Source: an uncultured Nitrospiraceae bacterium | Lineage (GTDB): Bacteria; Nitrospirota; Thermodesulfovibrionia; Thermodesulfovibrionales; Dissulfurispiraceae | Reading direction: 5' to 3' | Length of the DNA: 64,000 bases | Assembly: GCA_903822005.1 (NCBI GenBank) | Contig: CAIJNL010000014.1 | Span: forward strand, 124,001-188,000 | Part shown: positions 13,965-54,959 of the stretch, piece by piece | Position numbering within the stretch: the first letter of the stretch is position 1 | Layout: every line of letters begins with the position of its first letter | Program-made: the position numbers and the translations under genes | Notes under the pieces: generated by a model | Databases searched by the model: none | What the model was told of the DNA's origin: nothing | What the model saw: only the letters and a program-made list of their open reading frames with translations

Positions 13965-15797
13965 CTATTTCTCTTTCCACCTTTCAGGGAATATAATATT
14001 GAATTTAGTCCCCTTTCCCTCTTCGCTCTCAACGCTTATTTCTCCCATATGCTCAGTAACAATCTGTTTCACCAGTGGGAGTCCCATTCCGAAACTCTGA
14101 CCTTTTGTAGTGAAGAAGGGATCGAATATTCTGCCGATGATTTCGTCTGGTATGCCGGCCCCGGTATCGGCTACGGAAAGAAATATACGCCCGCCTTCGG
14201 CGTATGTTGCGACAAGTACGCTGCCTGCCTCAGGTGTTGCCTCTATCGCATTTTTGATCAGGTGGAATATGGCGACCCTTAGAAGATTGAGCTGTGCGTT
14301 GATCATCAATGTCCCGGCAGCCAGGTTGACCGACAGCCGTACGCCTTTATCATCTGCCTTGCGGGCTATTACATTTACAGCGCCCTCGACCACTTTGTTC
14401 AGGTCCTCATACGCAAACTTCGACTGCCTGCTCTTCAGAAGTGACTGGAAATCGGTAACGATCTTCTCAAGGTCTTTCGAACTGTCCGTTATGATCTCAA
14501 AACTGTCCTTCATTCTTTCGGGAATATCTCCTTTTTCGGACAGCCTTTTACAGACGCCTGATATCAGCGCGGCAGGATTCCGCACCCTGTCGGCAACAGT
14601 AAGGGCCATCAGACTCATCGTTCTTTCATTAAGCATGGTCTCCATTTCCTGGTTGAATTCCCCAACCTCGCAGACAAGTTTTTCGACCTCATCATTTTTT
14701 TCCTCTATCTCGGTCTGACGCCTGTCCAGGTCAGTGACCATTGAGTTGAAAGCACTGGTGAGTTTGCCGATTTCATCAGAAGATGCAACATGGAAAAGCC
14801 GGTCTTCTCCCTGCTTCGCCTTCATGGATTCCACATGCCTCGTGAATGTCAGAAGCGGTCTGGTCAACAGGTTCATCAGATACCATACTATCACCGGCAC
14901 TATGAGGATCACTACCGACATGAAAAGAAGCATGACATCCCGCGCCTGATATAAGGGCCTGTAGGCCTCGTCCACCGGATAGTTGGCCGCAACAATCCAG
15001 TCCTTTGCAGCAAGGCTTTTGAATGACGTTATCGCGTGCAGACCGCGTGAGTTAACAGTCTCGTCAGTGCCCTCAAACCCATGTATGGCCCTTTCGAGCA
15101 GTTTATTGGCCCCCATCGGAACGTCCTGCTTCAGGACCCGGCTTCGGTCGGGGTGCAATATAATCCTGCGGTCCCTTGTTATCACATAGAAATATCCGGT
15201 CTTTCCTACCGGGGTGCTGATCAGTCGGCTGATTATGTTTTCCTTGAGCAGATCGATGCCGCCGCCGAGAACGCCAATCAGTCTCCCGTCCGGACCGAAT
15301 ACCGGGGCAGTAAGCATCAACGAAGGATGGTTGCCCGGCATGCTCGAAAAATAAGGATCGCTGATAAAGGGCGTTTTATTAGCTATGGTGTCGGAAATGT
15401 GTTTCCGGTGCAAAAAGCTCCTGCCTGCCCTGCCCGTCACCTGGGGCGCTTCCGCGACAAGTTTGCCCGTTTCATCAAACAGATAAAGCCCGTTATCAAA
15501 AAGCTTGTGCAGCTCCACATGCTGATTCAGAAAAGCGCGGGCCTGTGTAGGGTTCCTGAAAAGGTCCGGCGGCACTTCTTTGGCCAGGACTATCACAAGC
15601 TCATGCATGTTATTCAGCTTGTCGTCTATTTCACCTGCAAACAGCGAAACTTTCGCGAACTGTTCTACGCCGATCAGCTCTTTTGTTGTGGATTCGAAAT
15701 AGGCCAGCGAAAAATAGGATATGGCCATGATAATGGCTGTCATCAGGGCAGAAACGGCACCGATCAGCCTTGTCTTTATGCTTAAATTGGTCATCAT
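13965..15797 (-). CDS. dCache-HAMP sensor kinase with degenerate H-box
   Basis: A 610-residue membrane sensor: TM1 (about 12-34), a periplasmic double-Cache region (about 50-280, with the HPSLMLTAPV and GYFYVITRD motifs), TM2 (about 288-310), HAMP, a coiled coil, then a DHp-like region and a HATPase domain. The ATPase motifs are intact: N box KNAIEATP, G1 DTGAGI, F box FDPFFTTK, G2 GMGLPLV. The H-box reads TVADRVRNPAALISG, so the phospho-acceptor His is replaced by Asp403. It should therefore not autophosphorylate in the normal way. No response regulator is adjacent. It may act as an ATP-dependent regulator or as a partner in a heterodimeric kinase. Confidence 0.85.
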   Translation of the reverse strand: MMTNLSIKTRLIGAVSALMTAIIMAISYFSLAYFESTTKELIGVEQFAKVSLFAGEIDDKLNNMHELVIVLAKEVPPDLFRNPTQARAFLNQHVELHKLFDNGLYLFDETGKLVAEAPQVTGRAGRSFLHRKHISDTIANKTPFISDPYFSSMPGNHPSLMLTAPVFGPDGRLIGVLGGGIDLLKENIISRLISTPVGKTGYFYVITRDRRIILHPDRSRVLKQDVPMGANKLLERAIHGFEGTDETVNSRGLHAITSFKSLAAKDWIVAANYPVDEAYRPLYQARDVMLLFMSVVILIVPVIVWYLMNLLTRPLLTFTRHVESMKAKQGEDRLFHVASSDEIGKLTSAFNSMVTDLDRRQTEIEEKNDEVEKLVCEVGEFNQEMETMLNERTMSLMALTVADRVRNPAALISGVCKRLSEKGDIPERMKDSFEIITDSSKDLEKIVTDFQSLLKSRQSKFAYEDLNKVVEGAVNVIARKADDKGVRLSVNLAAGTLMINAQLNLLRVAIFHLIKNAIEATPEAGSVLVATYAEGGRIFLSVADTGAGIPDEIIGRIFDPFFTTKGQSFGMGLPLVKQIVTEHMGEISVESEEGKGTKFNIIFPERWKEK

Positions 15798-15860: not shown

Positions 15861-17090
15861 CTACAGGGTGTCCGCCGCAATATACCTGGCGCAATAAAAA
15901 GAAAAGCCGGCAGCGATGAGTATGGCAAACGGCGTAATCATCAACGCGCTCCTGAGACCTGAAATATCGGACAGTGCCCCGATGATGACGGGTGAAATCG
16001 CATCCCCAAGAGCGTGGATCACAAATATGTTCAGGGCAAAGGCCATGGCCCTCATTGACGGGGCGGTCACATTTATGATTATGGTGTTCAACGGCCCGGT
16101 GCTGAGAAAAAGGAAAAATTCAGCCGCGAATGTCGCTGCAAGGCATGCTGGTGCGGAATCAGTGGTCAGGGCAAAAAAAGCCACCGGCACCGCTATTAAA
16201 AAGCCCCAACCCGAAACGAACAGATAACCCCTGACGTTTGTTTTCTGGAAATGATCGCCGATCCATCCGCCCGCAAGCGTGCCGGAGATACCGGCAACTA
16301 TCGTAACAAGACCGAACATTACGTTTCCGCTCGCCACATCAAGGCCGTGAAGACGGTAAAGGAATGTCGGGAACCACTGCGCGAGCCCTCCAAGCGCAAA
16401 AGTCATGGCTGTCATGGAAAGGGTATTGATGATAAATGAACGGTTCGAGAGAAACTGCCTGTAGCCTTTGGCTCCTGAAACTATTCGGGATTCAGCAGGT
16501 CCGTCGCTCAGTCCCCTTCGCGGCTCTTTCAAAAGCCATAAGGGAATTGCAATTAAAAGTCCTGGCAGGCCGACAACCAGAAATGCTGCATGCCATCCAA
16601 AGTGCTGCCCCAGCAGGCCTCCTGCCAGATACCCGAGGGCGCTGCCTACCGGTATGGCAAGGTAAAACAGCGAGAGTATCTTGCCCCGCGAAGCCCGCGA
16701 AAAATAATCGGCCAGAACACCCGGCGATACCGTACCGAAGCTTGCCTCTCCCAGGCCCACCATGGTCCGCGCAGCAAGGAGGGACCAGTAGCCGTTGGAA
16801 AAACCGGCGGCCCCGGTTGCAACGCTCCATAATAACAGACCGGAAGCCGCAAGCCGTAATCGCCTCATGCGGTCACCCAGCCAACCGAATAAAGGGGCCG
16901 ACACCATATAACAGACCATGAATACGCTGCCAAGGGTGCCGAGCGCCGTGTCAGTAAGCTGCAGGTCGTCCCTGATGAGGGGAAATACGGCATATATAAC
17001 CTGCCTGTCAATATAATTCAGAAGGTTTGCCGAGAAAAGGACGGTCAATACGTAGTAGCTGTACCGCAGAGAGACCGGTCTGTTATTCAT
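15861..17090 (-). CDS. MFS carrier, Spinster-like
   Basis: A 409-residue, roughly 12-segment inner-membrane protein. The first segment carries NLLNYIDRQVIYAV and the loop FGWLGDRMRRLRL, both typical of the bacterial Spinster-type MFS group. Substrate is unknown; sugars, lipids and organic anions are known for relatives. The gene begins 15 nt after the rnc stop on the same strand, so it may be read through from the fatty-acid operon, although no functional link is evident. Confidence 0.82.
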   Translation of the reverse strand: MNNRPVSLRYSYYVLTVLFSANLLNYIDRQVIYAVFPLIRDDLQLTDTALGTLGSVFMVCYMVSAPLFGWLGDRMRRLRLAASGLLLWSVATGAAGFSNGYWSLLAARTMVGLGEASFGTVSPGVLADYFSRASRGKILSLFYLAIPVGSALGYLAGGLLGQHFGWHAAFLVVGLPGLLIAIPLWLLKEPRRGLSDGPAESRIVSGAKGYRQFLSNRSFIINTLSMTAMTFALGGLAQWFPTFLYRLHGLDVASGNVMFGLVTIVAGISGTLAGGWIGDHFQKTNVRGYLFVSGWGFLIAVPVAFFALTTDSAPACLAATFAAEFFLFLSTGPLNTIIINVTAPSMRAMAFALNIFVIHALGDAISPVIIGALSDISGLRSALMITPFAILIAAGFSFYCARYIAADTL

Positions 17091-50443: not shown

Positions 50444-51781
50444 CTATTCAATGCCGTAAGAATTGATCTTTTCCCATAGATTCTTTCTGCTTATGCCAAG
50501 CAATTCCGCAGCCTTTGTCTTGTTCCCACCGGCTGTCCTCAGAACATTCAGGATATGTGCCTTTTCGGCATCAGCCGCCACATCAGAAAGAGATAGGCTT
50601 TTTGCGGCACCCGCAGCCGTTGATATAAATGGAGGGAGCCCGTCCCTGTCTATCACCTCTGTCGTTGAGAGGGTTACCGAGCGTTCTATGATGTTTTCGA
50701 GTTCTCTTATGTTCCCGGGATATTTATATGCCAGCAGGTCGTCTGCGGCCTCTATCGAAAAACGAACATTCTTCGCGCTCTTTTTCCTGTATTTATCCAT
50801 GAAGTATTCAATAAGGCAGGGAATGTCTTCTCTCCTTTCGCGCAAGGGCGGAAGAGTAATAGGAATTACGTTGAGCCGGTAATAGAGATCTTCCCTGAAC
50901 CTGCCGGCCTTCATCTCCTCTTCAAGGTCCCTGTTGGTAGCCGCTATGATCCGCACATCCGTACTCAGCGTCGCAGTGCCGCCGATCCTCTCGAACTGTC
51001 TCTCCTGAATTACCCTGAGGATCTTGGACTGGGTCGATAGCGGCAGATCACCTATCTCATCGAGAAAGATGGTCCCACCGCCCGCAAGTTCAAATCTGCC
51101 GGGCTTTCTCTTTATGGCCCCTGTAAACGCGCCCTTCTCATGTCCGAAAAGTTCACTCTCTATCAACCCCTCCGGCAGGGCCGCGCAGTTGACCTTGATT
51201 AACGGCCTGTCCCTGCGGCTGCTCAGGTAATGGATGGTCGCGGCCGCGAGCTCTTTGCCTGTACCGCTCTCACCCAGAATAAGTACGGTTGAATCCGACG
51301 CGGAGACCATTTCAATAAGCGAGAGCACCTTTTTGATCTCGGCGCTCTCACCGATGATATTGGAAGGACTGTAATACCTGTTCAGGTCTTTCTTCAGCCT
51401 GATATTTTCTTCCTTCAACTTCCTGATCTCGAGTGCCCTCTCGACCAGCAGCAGGAACTCATCCATGGCAAACGGCTTGGTTATATAATCAAAGGCACCG
51501 AGTTTCATTGCTTCAACGGCATCCTTGATAGTGCCGTAGGCCGTCATCATGATAACCGGAACATCCCGCCGTTTAGTTATCTCCCTGACAATATCAAATC
51601 CGTCCATGTCAGGCAGTCTTACGTCCGTTATGGCCATGTCAAAAGAACCGTATTTAATATCATTCATGGCTCCTTCGCCGGTTTCGTGGGACATGACCTC
51701 ATACCCAGCCTCTTTTAACGCGTCTTCAATGGTAACTCGCATTATCTTCTCATCTTCTATAAGCAGGATGTTTTCTTTCAT
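50444..51781 (-). CDS. NtrC-family sigma-54-dependent response regulator
   Basis: A 445-residue activator: receiver domain with Asp in AITDVRLPDMDG, AAA+ domain with Walker A GESGTGKE, GAFTGA loop and Walker B IFLDEIGD, and C-terminal Fis-type helix-turn-helix (GNKTKAAELLGISRKNLWEKI). It overlaps the kinase gene by 4 nt. Given its place just upstream of a sigma-54 promoter with two palindromes, it is the likely activator of the molybdoenzyme operon. Confidence 0.95.
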   Translation of the reverse strand: MKENILLIEDEKIMRVTIEDALKEAGYEVMSHETGEGAMNDIKYGSFDMAITDVRLPDMDGFDIVREITKRRDVPVIMMTAYGTIKDAVEAMKLGAFDYITKPFAMDEFLLLVERALEIRKLKEENIRLKKDLNRYYSPSNIIGESAEIKKVLSLIEMVSASDSTVLILGESGTGKELAAATIHYLSSRRDRPLIKVNCAALPEGLIESELFGHEKGAFTGAIKRKPGRFELAGGGTIFLDEIGDLPLSTQSKILRVIQERQFERIGGTATLSTDVRIIAATNRDLEEEMKAGRFREDLYYRLNVIPITLPPLRERREDIPCLIEYFMDKYRKKSAKNVRFSIEAADDLLAYKYPGNIRELENIIERSVTLSTTEVIDRDGLPPFISTAAGAAKSLSLSDVAADAEKAHILNVLRTAGGNKTKAAELLGISRKNLWEKINSYGIE

Positions 51782-53250
51782 GTATTCCTTACGTCCGGAA
51801 AACGCATGCCGAATCTGCTGCCCTTGCCGACCTCGCTCTCCACAGATATTTCACCATTGTAGTTTCTGACAATCTCATAGGTCAACCAGAGCCCGAGTCC
51901 GGTGCCTTCGCCAGTGGGCCGCGTTGTAAAGAAAGGGTCGAACACCTTTCCGATATTTTCCTCTTCAATGCCGCACCCGTTGTCGATGACCTCGATCAAA
52001 GTCGCGGAACCCTCTCTGCTGCCCCTGACCTCGAGGGTGCCTCCATTCTTCATTGCATGGATCGCGTTTATAAACAGATTCAGCAGCAGCTGCTGAAAAT
52101 CATGCAGATCAAAGACAAAACGCAGGCCATCCGGAATCTCATTCCTGAAGATGATCTTTCCGGTTTTGACCTTGTGTTCCACGAACAGGTAGACACTGTC
52201 GACCGCGCTCCTTATATTAACATCAACCGGCTCGTGTTCCTCTTTCCGCGACATCCAGAGCAGCTTGCTGACAGTATTTTCGATCCGCTCCAATCCCTCA
52301 TGCACCAGCTCCAGATATTTCCCCCGTAACTGCTGATTGCCGCCCTTTTGCCTGAGTATACCGATGCAGTTGAATATGCCTCCAAGCGGATTGTTGATCT
52401 CATGGGCAACGCCCGCCGCAAGTATACCTATGGTTGCAAGTTTTTCAGACCGGACAAGGTTATCGTGTGTTTTTTTCAGCTCCTCATTTGCCTGCCTTAT
52501 CCTCTCGATCATGCTGTTGAATCTTTCTCCAAGGACAGCAAGCTCATCATTGCCGTTCACTTCCACCTTGATATCCAGATAGTCTCCTCGCGCCTTCTCC
52601 ATGGTATTCGCAAGGTTGGTAATGGGGCTTATGAAGCGCCGGCTCAAAAGCAGTATCAGCCCGAAACCGACGCAGACAAAAGTTATTGTCAGCCCGATGA
52701 TGGTCGCAATGGTCGCAAAGATTTCATTTTCGGCCTTTTCGAGGGATATCCCGAATTTCAGGGTCCCCCATCTTTTCTTGCCGATCAGCAGCGGTATTCC
52801 GAAATCCAGCGCCCCGTGCCCCCTGTCCTGAATCTGCTGAACAATAGTGCCCTCCGCACCAAGGGCCTTTTGGGTCAGTGGATCGTCGTATATTTTGCCG
52901 TATTCAGTAATATTATTGTGTGAAATGACCTTTCCCCTGTCGTCCAGTATGGCGATATAGAGAAGGCCCGTGTCCTGCCTGTTGAAGATCTCTACGATAT
53001 AGTTGTCGAGAAGACCGCCTTCTTCCACCAGGCCGAGCCTCTCGTAAATGAGATCATTTATTATCGGGATGGCGAGGGTCTCCCCGAAAAGGCGGCCCTG
53101 CTTTTCGACTTCAGCATAAAGTATCTTCTTTTCTCTCTCGACCGCGAGGTATCCGACCATGCCCATGATCGCAACGATCCCGCAGGTGGTGATCAGTATG
53201 AATTTATACCGCAGGTTAAGCTTAGAAAAAAATCTGCCGGTCCAGTTCAT
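51778..53250 (-). CDS. membrane sensor histidine kinase of the PhnD-HK-NtrC operon
   Basis: A 490-residue kinase: TM1 (about 15-33), a periplasmic single-Cache-like domain (about 35-170), TM2 (about 185-205), HAMP, a DHp with GVAHEINNPLGGIFN, and HATPase (NLFINAIHAMKN, DNGCGI, FDPFFTT, GTGLGLWLTY). Both ends overlap neighbouring genes by 4 nt (ATGA), so binding protein, kinase and regulator are made together. It could receive the signal from the periplasmic PhnD-like protein encoded upstream. Confidence 0.94.
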   Translation of the reverse strand: MNWTGRFFSKLNLRYKFILITTCGIVAIMGMVGYLAVEREKKILYAEVEKQGRLFGETLAIPIINDLIYERLGLVEEGGLLDNYIVEIFNRQDTGLLYIAILDDRGKVISHNNITEYGKIYDDPLTQKALGAEGTIVQQIQDRGHGALDFGIPLLIGKKRWGTLKFGISLEKAENEIFATIATIIGLTITFVCVGFGLILLLSRRFISPITNLANTMEKARGDYLDIKVEVNGNDELAVLGERFNSMIERIRQANEELKKTHDNLVRSEKLATIGILAAGVAHEINNPLGGIFNCIGILRQKGGNQQLRGKYLELVHEGLERIENTVSKLLWMSRKEEHEPVDVNIRSAVDSVYLFVEHKVKTGKIIFRNEIPDGLRFVFDLHDFQQLLLNLFINAIHAMKNGGTLEVRGSREGSATLIEVIDNGCGIEEENIGKVFDPFFTTRPTGEGTGLGLWLTYEIVRNYNGEISVESEVGKGSRFGMRFPDVRNT

Positions 53251-54959
53251 AATTTTATCTTTGGGTGGCAGCCCCGACCGCAGGTCTGCGGCACTGCATT
53301 GATCTTTGCTCTTATGTCCTCATAATCTTTGTCACCCGCCTCGACAAAACCGTTTTTATAGTCTTCATCAAGACGCCTCAGAATGTTCCGGCTCTCTTCG
53401 GAACGCGGGTCGAGTTCGAGAAGCGCCTTTTTTATGTTCTGAACGAGGGAAGCCGGAGTGCCTTTACCCGCAACCAGAGGCCCGTTCGGAACAGGGCCTG
53501 ATTCGGCTACTATCTCTATGCCAAGCTTCACATATTTTCTCGCAACCGAATCTCTTACCGCCCCGGCCGCGTATTGTCCCTTCAAAACGGCCTTTACAAC
53601 CGAATCGTGATAACTGAAATTATTGAAACTGCTGAGGTCACTGAGATGTATCCCTGCATTCGCAAGAAGATACCGCGGTATAAGGTTCCCTGACGTGGAC
53701 TGCGTTGAGGAAAAGGCGACACTCTTACCTTTCAGGTCTGCGAGGGTCCTGACCGGCGAGTCTTTCTTTTTTATGATCACGCTTTTGTATGACGCGCTTC
53801 CGTCAGCTCCTTTAGGCTTCAGTATGCCTTTCACGCCGTATCTCTTATGGGCTTCGAGGTATGTCAATGGGCCGAGCAGCGCCATGTCCATTTCGCCGCT
53901 TCCGACCGCGCTGACCGTCTCCTTGTAATTCTTTTTCAGGACAAGTTCGTACTTGTACGGCGTCTTTGTCGCAAGATAGTCGAGCAGAGGCTGATAGCGT
54001 TCGTACATGATCCTCGGGTTGTCGCGAGGGATGACCCCGAAATATACGGTATTGCCTTCTTTGGCTTTCTTTGTGATCTTTGCACTTGCAGTGATAGAGC
54101 GTTCCATCGCCCTGATGGCGTCATAATTACTGTCCGGAACCTCTGTAAAGCCGTCGATCATCATTGCACTAAGGATCGCCTTGCCCCTTTCCGTTTTATG
54201 CATATTGAGAAAGGCTTCCCTCGTTTTTTTCCTGATGATCGGATCGATATCAGTCGTGACAACAACAGGAGGGATTCCATACGGCGGTGAACGCTTGATG
54301 ATCTTTGTCTGCACCGCGTAAGGAGACCCTGTCTTCAGCATATGGTCGTAAACGATACTGTCAACCGCGGCCCCGTCCGCTATTTTCTTGGCCACCATTT
54401 CTACCGATTTGTTATGACTATAACTGTAAAAAAAGCTCTGAAAAAAACGTTCCGGAGTGTATCCCATGGTCTTCAGCAGATAGTCGGGATAGAGCTTGCC
54501 GGTGTTTGACCTGGGATCCATAAATGCAAACACCTTCCCCTTCAGTTCGGGGAAAGATTTGGTCTGGTTGTCTTTATGGACGATTATATAGGAATGATAA
54601 TGCGTGCTCCCAAGGACAACAGGGGCGACGAGAAGTTCATTGCCGAACTGCTCACGGTTCTTGACATACTGCCCCGAACAGACAAAGGCTATCTTTACTT
54701 CTCCTTTCTCGAGCAGAGAGTCCATTTCTTCATACGTCCTTCTATGGACCATCTGCACCGGCATGCCAATCTGTACCCCGATATAATCAATAAAATCCTG
54801 GTAATATTTGACCGAATCAACCGGGGTGATCATCGAGGAGACGCCGATCTTGACCACGCTCCCCGTTTCGGAATAGACTTCACCCGGAAAGCATGCGGGG
54901 AAAACAGCAGGGAAAAACAGTAATGCCGCAACCAGCAGAGATTTTATCCTTATAGACAT
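53247..54959 (-). CDS. tandem PhnD-type periplasmic binding protein (likely signal receptor)
   Basis: A 570-residue exported protein with two successive PhnD-type oxyanion-binding modules (about 35-290 and 310-540). Each has the GVSSM/GVIPR start and the DLKGK(V)AF plus S.TSGNL or SNTGKL anion-loop motifs. A signal peptide occupies the first ~30 residues; a Cys at FPACFPG might be a weak lipobox. The C-terminus ends TCGRGCHPKIKL, a CX3CH motif (Cys560, Cys564, His565). No ABC permease or ATPase is nearby; instead the gene overlaps a histidine kinase. TtrS carries a PhnD-like domain fused to its kinase, so this looks like a split version. Confidence 0.85.
   Translation of the reverse strand: MSIRIKSLLVAALLFFPAVFPACFPGEVYSETGSVVKIGVSSMITPVDSVKYYQDFIDYIGVQIGMPVQMVHRRTYEEMDSLLEKGEVKIAFVCSGQYVKNREQFGNELLVAPVVLGSTHYHSYIIVHKDNQTKSFPELKGKVFAFMDPRSNTGKLYPDYLLKTMGYTPERFFQSFFYSYSHNKSVEMVAKKIADGAAVDSIVYDHMLKTGSPYAVQTKIIKRSPPYGIPPVVVTTDIDPIIRKKTREAFLNMHKTERGKAILSAMMIDGFTEVPDSNYDAIRAMERSITASAKITKKAKEGNTVYFGVIPRDNPRIMYERYQPLLDYLATKTPYKYELVLKKNYKETVSAVGSGEMDMALLGPLTYLEAHKRYGVKGILKPKGADGSASYKSVIIKKKDSPVRTLADLKGKSVAFSSTQSTSGNLIPRYLLANAGIHLSDLSSFNNFSYHDSVVKAVLKGQYAAGAVRDSVARKYVKLGIEIVAESGPVPNGPLVAGKGTPASLVQNIKKALLELDPRSEESRNILRRLDEDYKNGFVEAGDKDYEDIRAKINAVPQTCGRGCHPKIKL

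Follow-up and report, generated by a model that had tools for sequence, protein, structure and literature searches.

An aspartate-for-histidine replacement at the phospho-acceptor site marks a conserved, probably kinase-dead family of histidine kinase-like proteins in Nitrospirota

What does a sensor histidine kinase do once an aspartate stands where its phosphorylated histidine is expected? The question is raised by a gene in a 64,000-nucleotide stretch of DNA from an uncultured Nitrospiraceae bacterium, referred to here in its entirety as the window. The gene (13965-15797, minus strand) encodes a 610-residue protein, P0001, whose translation contains NERTMSLMALTVADRVRNPAALISGVCKRL and which is arranged as transmembrane segment, dCache_1, transmembrane segment, HAMP, Asp-bearing DHp, and HATPase_c. 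The hydropathy segments taken as transmembrane lie at residues 11-29 and 282-300. The extracytoplasmic dCache_1 sensor (14988-15647, minus; residues 51-270; Pfam 62.8 bits, cut-off 45) and the HAMP linker (14727-14879, minus; residues 307-357; 29.8 bits, cut-off 25) both score above their Pfam cut-offs, confirming the view of the initial annotation that sensor and linker are kept. The HisKA-like DHp helical hairpin (14373-14657, minus; residues 381-475) is sub-threshold in Pfam, as residues 396-453 reach 21.9 bits, and 26.3 bits in a search of the own genome, against the PF00512 gathering score of 26.9. It is followed by the HATPase_c (CA) domain (13983-14285, minus; residues 505-605; 85 bits) and a C-terminal FPxRW signature (13977-13991, minus).

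The H-box, TVADRVRNPAALISG, spans 14556-14600; the interval originally proposed for it, 14565-14620, overlaps this site but is off by 9-20 bases. Within the box, the phospho-acceptor position is occupied by Asp403 (GAC, 14589-14591, minus), as had been claimed, the +1 position, which is Glu or Asp in kinases, by Arg404 (14586-14588, minus), and the +4 position, that of the HisKA phosphatase residue, by Asn407 (14577-14579, minus). The CA domain retains N516, D544/G546/G548, the F residue, and the G2 glycines, and the N, G1, F, and G2 boxes are therefore intact, again as first described. Among the features of a competent HisKA kinase, P0001 thus lacks the acceptor His and the +1 acid and possesses the CA boxes. 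When all 53 regions matched by HisKA in the own genome at E 0.01 were read, 52 displayed His followed by Glu or Asp, the sole exception being P0001, so that the change at Asp403 is both real and unusual in this genome. The second-best protein match to P0001 there (L002; G000:C29:14391-16208; 32% over residues 6-599) lies in a 1054-aa frame with a canonical SHEIRTP box.

Whether the replacement is a peculiarity of one gene was addressed by searches of increasing breadth. A protein search of 60 genomes, the own one included, at E 1e-60 returned matches in 28 genomes, some to the sensor half only, and all proteins with more than 40% core identity over the H-box (24 besides P0001) carry Asp at the site. 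A profile of the DHp region (A2), applied to 295 genomes of the window's phylum, Nitrospirota, separated the family (at least 102 bits, plus a truncated 102-aa frame in G010 at 70.8 bits, its H-box unread) from the background (at most 51 bits). All family members recovered in this way belong to the window's taxonomic class, and every match above 51 bits whose box was read is Asp-type. Among 50 named genomes, family matches occur in 'Nitrospirae bacterium' (L116, from the window's own taxonomic family, and L077, from its class), a Thermodesulfovibrionia MAG (L056), and 'Bacterium BMS3Abin06' (L071), and the other 46 gave no family-level match. Outside this phylum, 26 of 297 genomes were matched at E 1e-14 in the phylum of Geobacter sp. 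OR-1 (G310), which we take to be Desulfobacterota. With the query A3 at the same threshold, the phyla represented by G305 (0/95 genomes), G325 (3/199), and G314 (1/146) yielded at best 60.9 bits, below family level; the score classes of A3 are at least 77.9 bits for the family and at most 61.1 bits for the lower class, the four matches being classed by score with their H-boxes unread, and A3 matched 26 of 26 genomes in the Desulfobacterota set, while the three other phylum searches held no positive genome. A contig scan with A1 selected peptides common to ATPases and led to general kinases sharing 26-39% identity with the query (80 retained out of 589), which supplied 33 alignment rows for the fold model described below.

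The resulting residue set consists of 100 loci plus the window, that is, 101 members at one per locus (93 tabulated and 8 added); outside it stand the fragment in G010, a pair of copies from G027, of which L024 has Asp, and L155, L157, and L160 (Asp). In all 64 Nitrospirota members, the window's included, the site is Asp, encoded by GAC in 53 and by GAT in 11, which answers the search for orthologues with an Asp box that the initial annotation had called for. Because the homologues carry the same Asp, Asp403 is not a sequencing error, and a pseudogene or an assembly fault is likewise ruled out. That P0001 might be a dying kinase gene or the product of an assembly error, to which its sub-threshold HisKA score could point, has a practically negligible probability and is refuted by the homologues, which combine a fixed Asp written in two synonymous codons with intact ATP sites and open frames.

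The 37 Desulfobacterota members compared divide into 15 with Asp and 22 with His, so that the site is Asp in 79 of the 101 members and His in 22, with no other residue. In none of the 79 Asp-type members is the +1 residue acidic (R 43, K 24, G 7, N 2, S 2, Q 1). The +4 Asn is found in 78 of them, the exception being L202 with Gly, and in 22 of 22 His-type members. For the ATP site, a table of 72 Asp-type members, which leaves out seven added later, records the N-box Asn in 72/72, DxGxG in 72/72, the F residue in 70/72, and the G2 glycines in 70/72. At a mean pairwise core identity of 48%, the 64 Nitrospirota members share 14 invariant positions (E391, R392, A402, D403, R406, P408, D465, N516, D544, G546, G548, H583, G585, and W607). 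The last of these, the Trp of the FPxRW signature, is also present in 8 of the 15 other Asp-type members and in 3 of the 22 His-type members.

Another His close by could in principle have taken over as acceptor. This candidate is ruled out, as the DHp of the 64 Nitrospirota members holds no conserved His; their only His-rich columns, His512 (56/64) and His583 (64/64), both lie within the ATPase domain. Judged from the sequences, the acceptor His and the adjacent acidic base have been replaced, the ATP site remains intact, and the module is strongly conserved and coupled to many sensors. We therefore infer that P0001 is unable to autophosphorylate by the His route, and consider the family, with a probability of about 0.9, to be a conserved kinase-dead signalling module. 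To this extent, the original interpretation stands, since loss of the acceptor with an intact ATP site is a conserved family trait. P0001 would qualify as a pseudo-histidine kinase in the broad sense of PMC12632262, which covers proteins of the histidine kinase fold that are short of at least one kinase function but are retained for signalling, and where HisKA domains without His are given as ~0.9% of the sample (722/76,471).

The restriction of the site to Asp or His in all 101 members also raises the idea that Asp403 is itself a phospho-acceptor, on which the CA domain would form an acyl phosphate, counter-charged by Arg or Lys404, to be passed on to a receiver. The intact ATP site and the Arg or Lys at +1 in 67 of the 79 Asp-type members fit this idea, and a carboxylate would need no general base. 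If true, such aspartyl autokinases would make the two-component system Asp-to-Asp instead of His-to-Asp. However, we know of no precedent for an Asp-accepting autokinase, seven Asp-type members have Gly at +1, and an acid and an amide at i and i+4 are already explained by phosphatase chemistry, making this proposal very improbable.

Given that the +1 acid is lost from every Asp-type member, that the +4 Asn is kept in all but one, and that the nucleotide site persists, a different reading is favoured: the family would be a signal-gated response-regulator phosphatase or a docking sink/switch, with a phosphatase mechanism that we infer from these residues and hold tentatively, at somewhat under even odds. 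The pattern suggests that Asp-type proteins no longer add phosphate and more likely remove that of a partner. According to PMC3510030, the +1 acid of CrdS, HK853, HK4262, and HK1190 is needed for the kinase but not the phosphatase activity and the +4 Thr/Asn for the reverse, and CrdS mutants with E changed to A, D, G, or Q are kinase-dead and phosphatase-competent; the same source describes acid-amide pairs (ExxN, DxxxQ) in CheX, CheZ, and NarX. Phosphatase activity of HK853 and EnvZ is reported to be stimulated by ADP (PMC7005713), which would provide a reason for keeping the ATP site in the absence of kinase activity. In addition, the H188V variant of DesK, a HisKA_3 protein, has been described as trapped in the phosphatase state (PMC5231405), and RetS, a kinase-dead sensor reported to act as a transmitter phosphatase (PMC5992135), sets a precedent. 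In such a scheme, a periplasmic ligand on the dCache domain would shift the HAMP/DHp bundle, ATP or ADP in the CA domain would set the conformation as in EnvZ and HK853, and DHp helix 1 would dock a phosphorylated receiver domain, leaving Asp403 and Asn407, whose acid and amide groups are separated by one turn of the helix, to orient the attacking water. A bifunctional kinase would have given rise to such a dedicated phosphatase by shedding its kinase activity.

Several points count against the phosphatase part of this scheme. The DxxxQ motif of NarX and DesK begins at +1, one residue off the register of Asp403, and has Gln rather than Asn, and the +4 Asn belongs to the common RNP motif, is shared by all His-type members, and may be kept for structural reasons. 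The His itself is reported to take part in HisKA phosphatase catalysis (PMC7005713; PMC12632262), and PMC12632262, weighing how the loss of His is divided over HisKA and HisKA_3 domains, does not see phosphatase activity favoured as what pseudo-kinases do in general. DivL, the pseudo-kinase studied in most detail, is described as devoid of phosphatase activity (PMC4211667). At the receiver-contact positions of the 64 Nitrospirota members, defined as the ones altered in PDB 4jas, a rewired HK853 by its entry title, +8 and +11 are variable and +15 is mostly Arg (51/64), a mixed pattern that, as read from the sequences, would neither prove nor exclude receiver docking.

DivL of Caulobacter is also the model for a non-catalytic alternative, in which the protein binds a phosphorylated receiver or another kinase and alters its partner allosterically with no catalysis of its own. 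With a conserved Tyr at the acceptor site, DivL is reported to bind DivK~P and to act on CckA without kinase or phosphatase activity (PMC4211667). It resembles P0001 in its histidine kinase architecture, its conserved non-His residue at the acceptor site, and its DHp-CA fold, but differs in having Tyr rather than Asp and PAS sensors and in being alphaproteobacterial, whereas in P0001 the four boxes of the CA domain (N, G1, F, and G2) and the +4 Asn are kept. Across the family, the module is joined to many inputs, including dCache-HAMP, receiver, Tll0287-like (L218), PAS (L202 and L196), and membrane domains, as well as an ABC_sub_bind-like domain in L193 (24.2 bits, cut-off 25.9). A receiver domain is N-terminal in 22 of the 64 Nitrospirota members (20 of 59 by profile, and L233 and L272 by eye), and a phospho-signal may therefore feed the module, which speaks for a DivL-like switch. 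So do the neighbourhoods of the 59 Nitrospirota loci examined, where, with gene starts and overlaps taken from simple ORF calling, five Asp-type genes overlap the 3' end of a canonical AHDFNN kinase gene, four of them with a receiver domain (L186, L187, L199, and L271) and one of another kind (L206), one has a kinase gene 16 bp downstream (L178), and one is part of an in-frame fusion, D-module-PAS-HisKA (AHDMKNP)-HATPase (L273). These arrangements fit the original proposal of a modulator of another kinase; the +4 Asn, the strict Asp, and the lost +1 base point more specifically to a response-regulator phosphatase. For P0001 itself, the expected partner genes did not materialise, as neither a receiver nor a kinase ATPase domain is encoded within four genes of it, which weighs against the DivL-like switch for the window copy. 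Moreover, a strict Asp and a complete ATP site exceed the needs of a binding surface, and in the receiver of at least one member (L213) the place of the acceptor Asp is taken by Asn. We regard the non-catalytic switch as unlikely, though second in the order in which the readings are favoured: phosphatase or docking sink, DivL-like switch, split kinase, and aspartyl autokinase.

The third of these holds that an Asp-type protein lends its ATPase domain to phosphorylate, in trans, the His of a His-bearing partner. Of the eight Desulfobacterota genomes in which the second Asp clade (see below) is represented, seven also hold a His-type member, and in three genomes (G644, G559, and G483) the His-type protein is without the N-box Asn that the Asp-type protein keeps. 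The N-box Asn is lost in 5 of the 21 tabulated His-type members; these five (L249, L259, L260, L251, and L267), with His kept and the N-box Asn lost, are the mirror image of the Asp-type proteins. However, G624 and G499 hold an ATPase-defective His-type member with no further family-level match at E 1e-12, and G582 has an Asp-type member alone, assembly gaps being possible in all three, and across the 295 Nitrospirota-phylum genomes the matches above 51 bits with a read box offer no His-bearing partner from the family. A split kinase is accordingly an improbable explanation.

The relationship between the two types was examined in a tree computed without the H/D column. Here the Asp members from Nitrospirota fall into a single clade (support 99/98), eight Asp members of Desulfobacterota form a second (100/99), and a third clade of 15 mixes seven ADG with eight AHG members, so that the tree requires at least four H/D changes, although long branches among the His members and a weak outgroup join (89/10) limit the reading of direction. 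The +1 acid is kept in 7 of the 22 His-type members and lost in 15, eight of which read AHGIRNP, as is expected if the loss of kinase activity preceded that of His. The sequences thus suggest an order in which the general base went first and His followed.

An AlphaFold2 model of P0001 residues 370-610 (pLDDT 89.6, pTM 0.73) shows a helical hairpin plus the CA fold, in which the helices of the hairpin span model residues 2-53 and 58-85, counted from residue 370 as 1, and Asp403 and Asn407 share one helix. Its alignment contained 34 sequences, 33 of them general kinases in which His is nearly invariant, so the model shows only that the P0001 sequence fits the fold. ZraS (9jfj) ranks first in both sequence and structure, the fold search places HK853-RR468 complexes next, and DivL (4q20) is among the PDB matches.

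HK853, CrdS, and ZraS are like P0001 in fold, domain order, and the Asn/Thr at +4; P0001 differs from them in missing both the acceptor His and the +1 acid. RetS of Pseudomonas aeruginosa keeps its His. It is a kinase-dead sensor whose transmitter phosphatase is directed at another kinase system, an activity that would be shared by P0001 under the favoured reading, yet it is reported to have lost the ATP site (PMC5992135), whereas in P0001 this site is intact and the His is lost. Leptospira LvrB has the REC-DHp-CA order of the 22 receiver-bearing Nitrospirota members, in place of which P0001 has dCache-HAMP; LvrB is described as an active receiver-controlled kinase (PMC13269768), unlike those family members, which have Asp at the acceptor site. 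The DxxxQ of CheZ and NarX resembles the DxxxN of 78 of the 79 Asp-type members in that the docking helix carries an acid followed by an amide at a spacing of four residues (PMC3510030), but the family has Asn for Gln and its acid in the register of the His instead of +1. Pseudo-histidine kinases are already known; a family that combines a fixed Asp with a lost base and a retained ATP site is apparently undescribed, no account of one having been found in the open-licence literature searched. With the same swap in 79 members, the base lost, the ATP site and the phosphatase residue kept, and His relatives extant, the family constitutes a natural experiment that bears on the general role of pseudo-histidine kinases. 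Similarity-based annotation would label the Asp-type proteins sensor kinases.

The genes surrounding family members are varied. P0001 is preceded on the same strand by ketoacyl-synthase (fabF-like), rnc-like (an ORF read by eye), and MFS genes, the MFS transporter gene (15861-17090, minus) lying 63 bp upstream; its cluster, c141, is outside the 40 commonest neighbour clusters. At 22 loci, some with a His-type and some with an Asp-type member, the gene directly upstream encodes a small histidine-rich membrane protein (cluster c1); where the junction was measured (21 loci), the two genes share 4 bp in 13. This protein (L223:6675-7121, minus, and 21 other loci) carries the His motifs VHQxAHxxF and WNxxxFxGH, and in L174 (5587-7122, minus) and L273 the N-terminal part of the Asp-type protein resembles it by eye, so that the two appear to be fused there. 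The c1 protein of L223 and a protein of the similar cluster c107 from L226 had no match in Pfam or NCBIfam; the c1 protein is possibly a heme or metal sensor subunit.

Stressosome-like neighbours occur in six of the eight loci of the second Asp clade (L242, L252, L253, L256, L258, and L263), not every gene being present in each. Five of the eight loci have a PAS-STAS and STAS pair, five HATPase_c_2-SpoIIE, and three a small HATPase_c_2 protein, which we label 'RsbT-like'; Pfam was run on one of each, SpoIIE scoring 24.6 bits against a cut-off of 25. The Asp-type proteins at these loci have an N-terminal domain that looks RsbW-like by eye and is uncalled by Pfam. The neighbouring genes suggest that partner switching feeds a pseudo-kinase there.

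Other arrangements recur as well. In the sister group of the window copy (L201, L209, and L213), the Asp-type gene is located upstream of GspD-, GspE-, and GspF-like secretion genes (Pfam on L201 only), and in L174, L190, L195, L221, L223, and others it is found behind a slipin (Band_7) gene, some of these loci adding genes for NfeD or VTT/DedA-like membrane proteins (Pfam on one of each). Elsewhere in the window (50444-54959, minus), genes for a phosphonate-binding-like periplasmic protein, an sCache-HAMP kinase, and a sigma-54 response regulator overlap end to start and likely constitute a three-component system.
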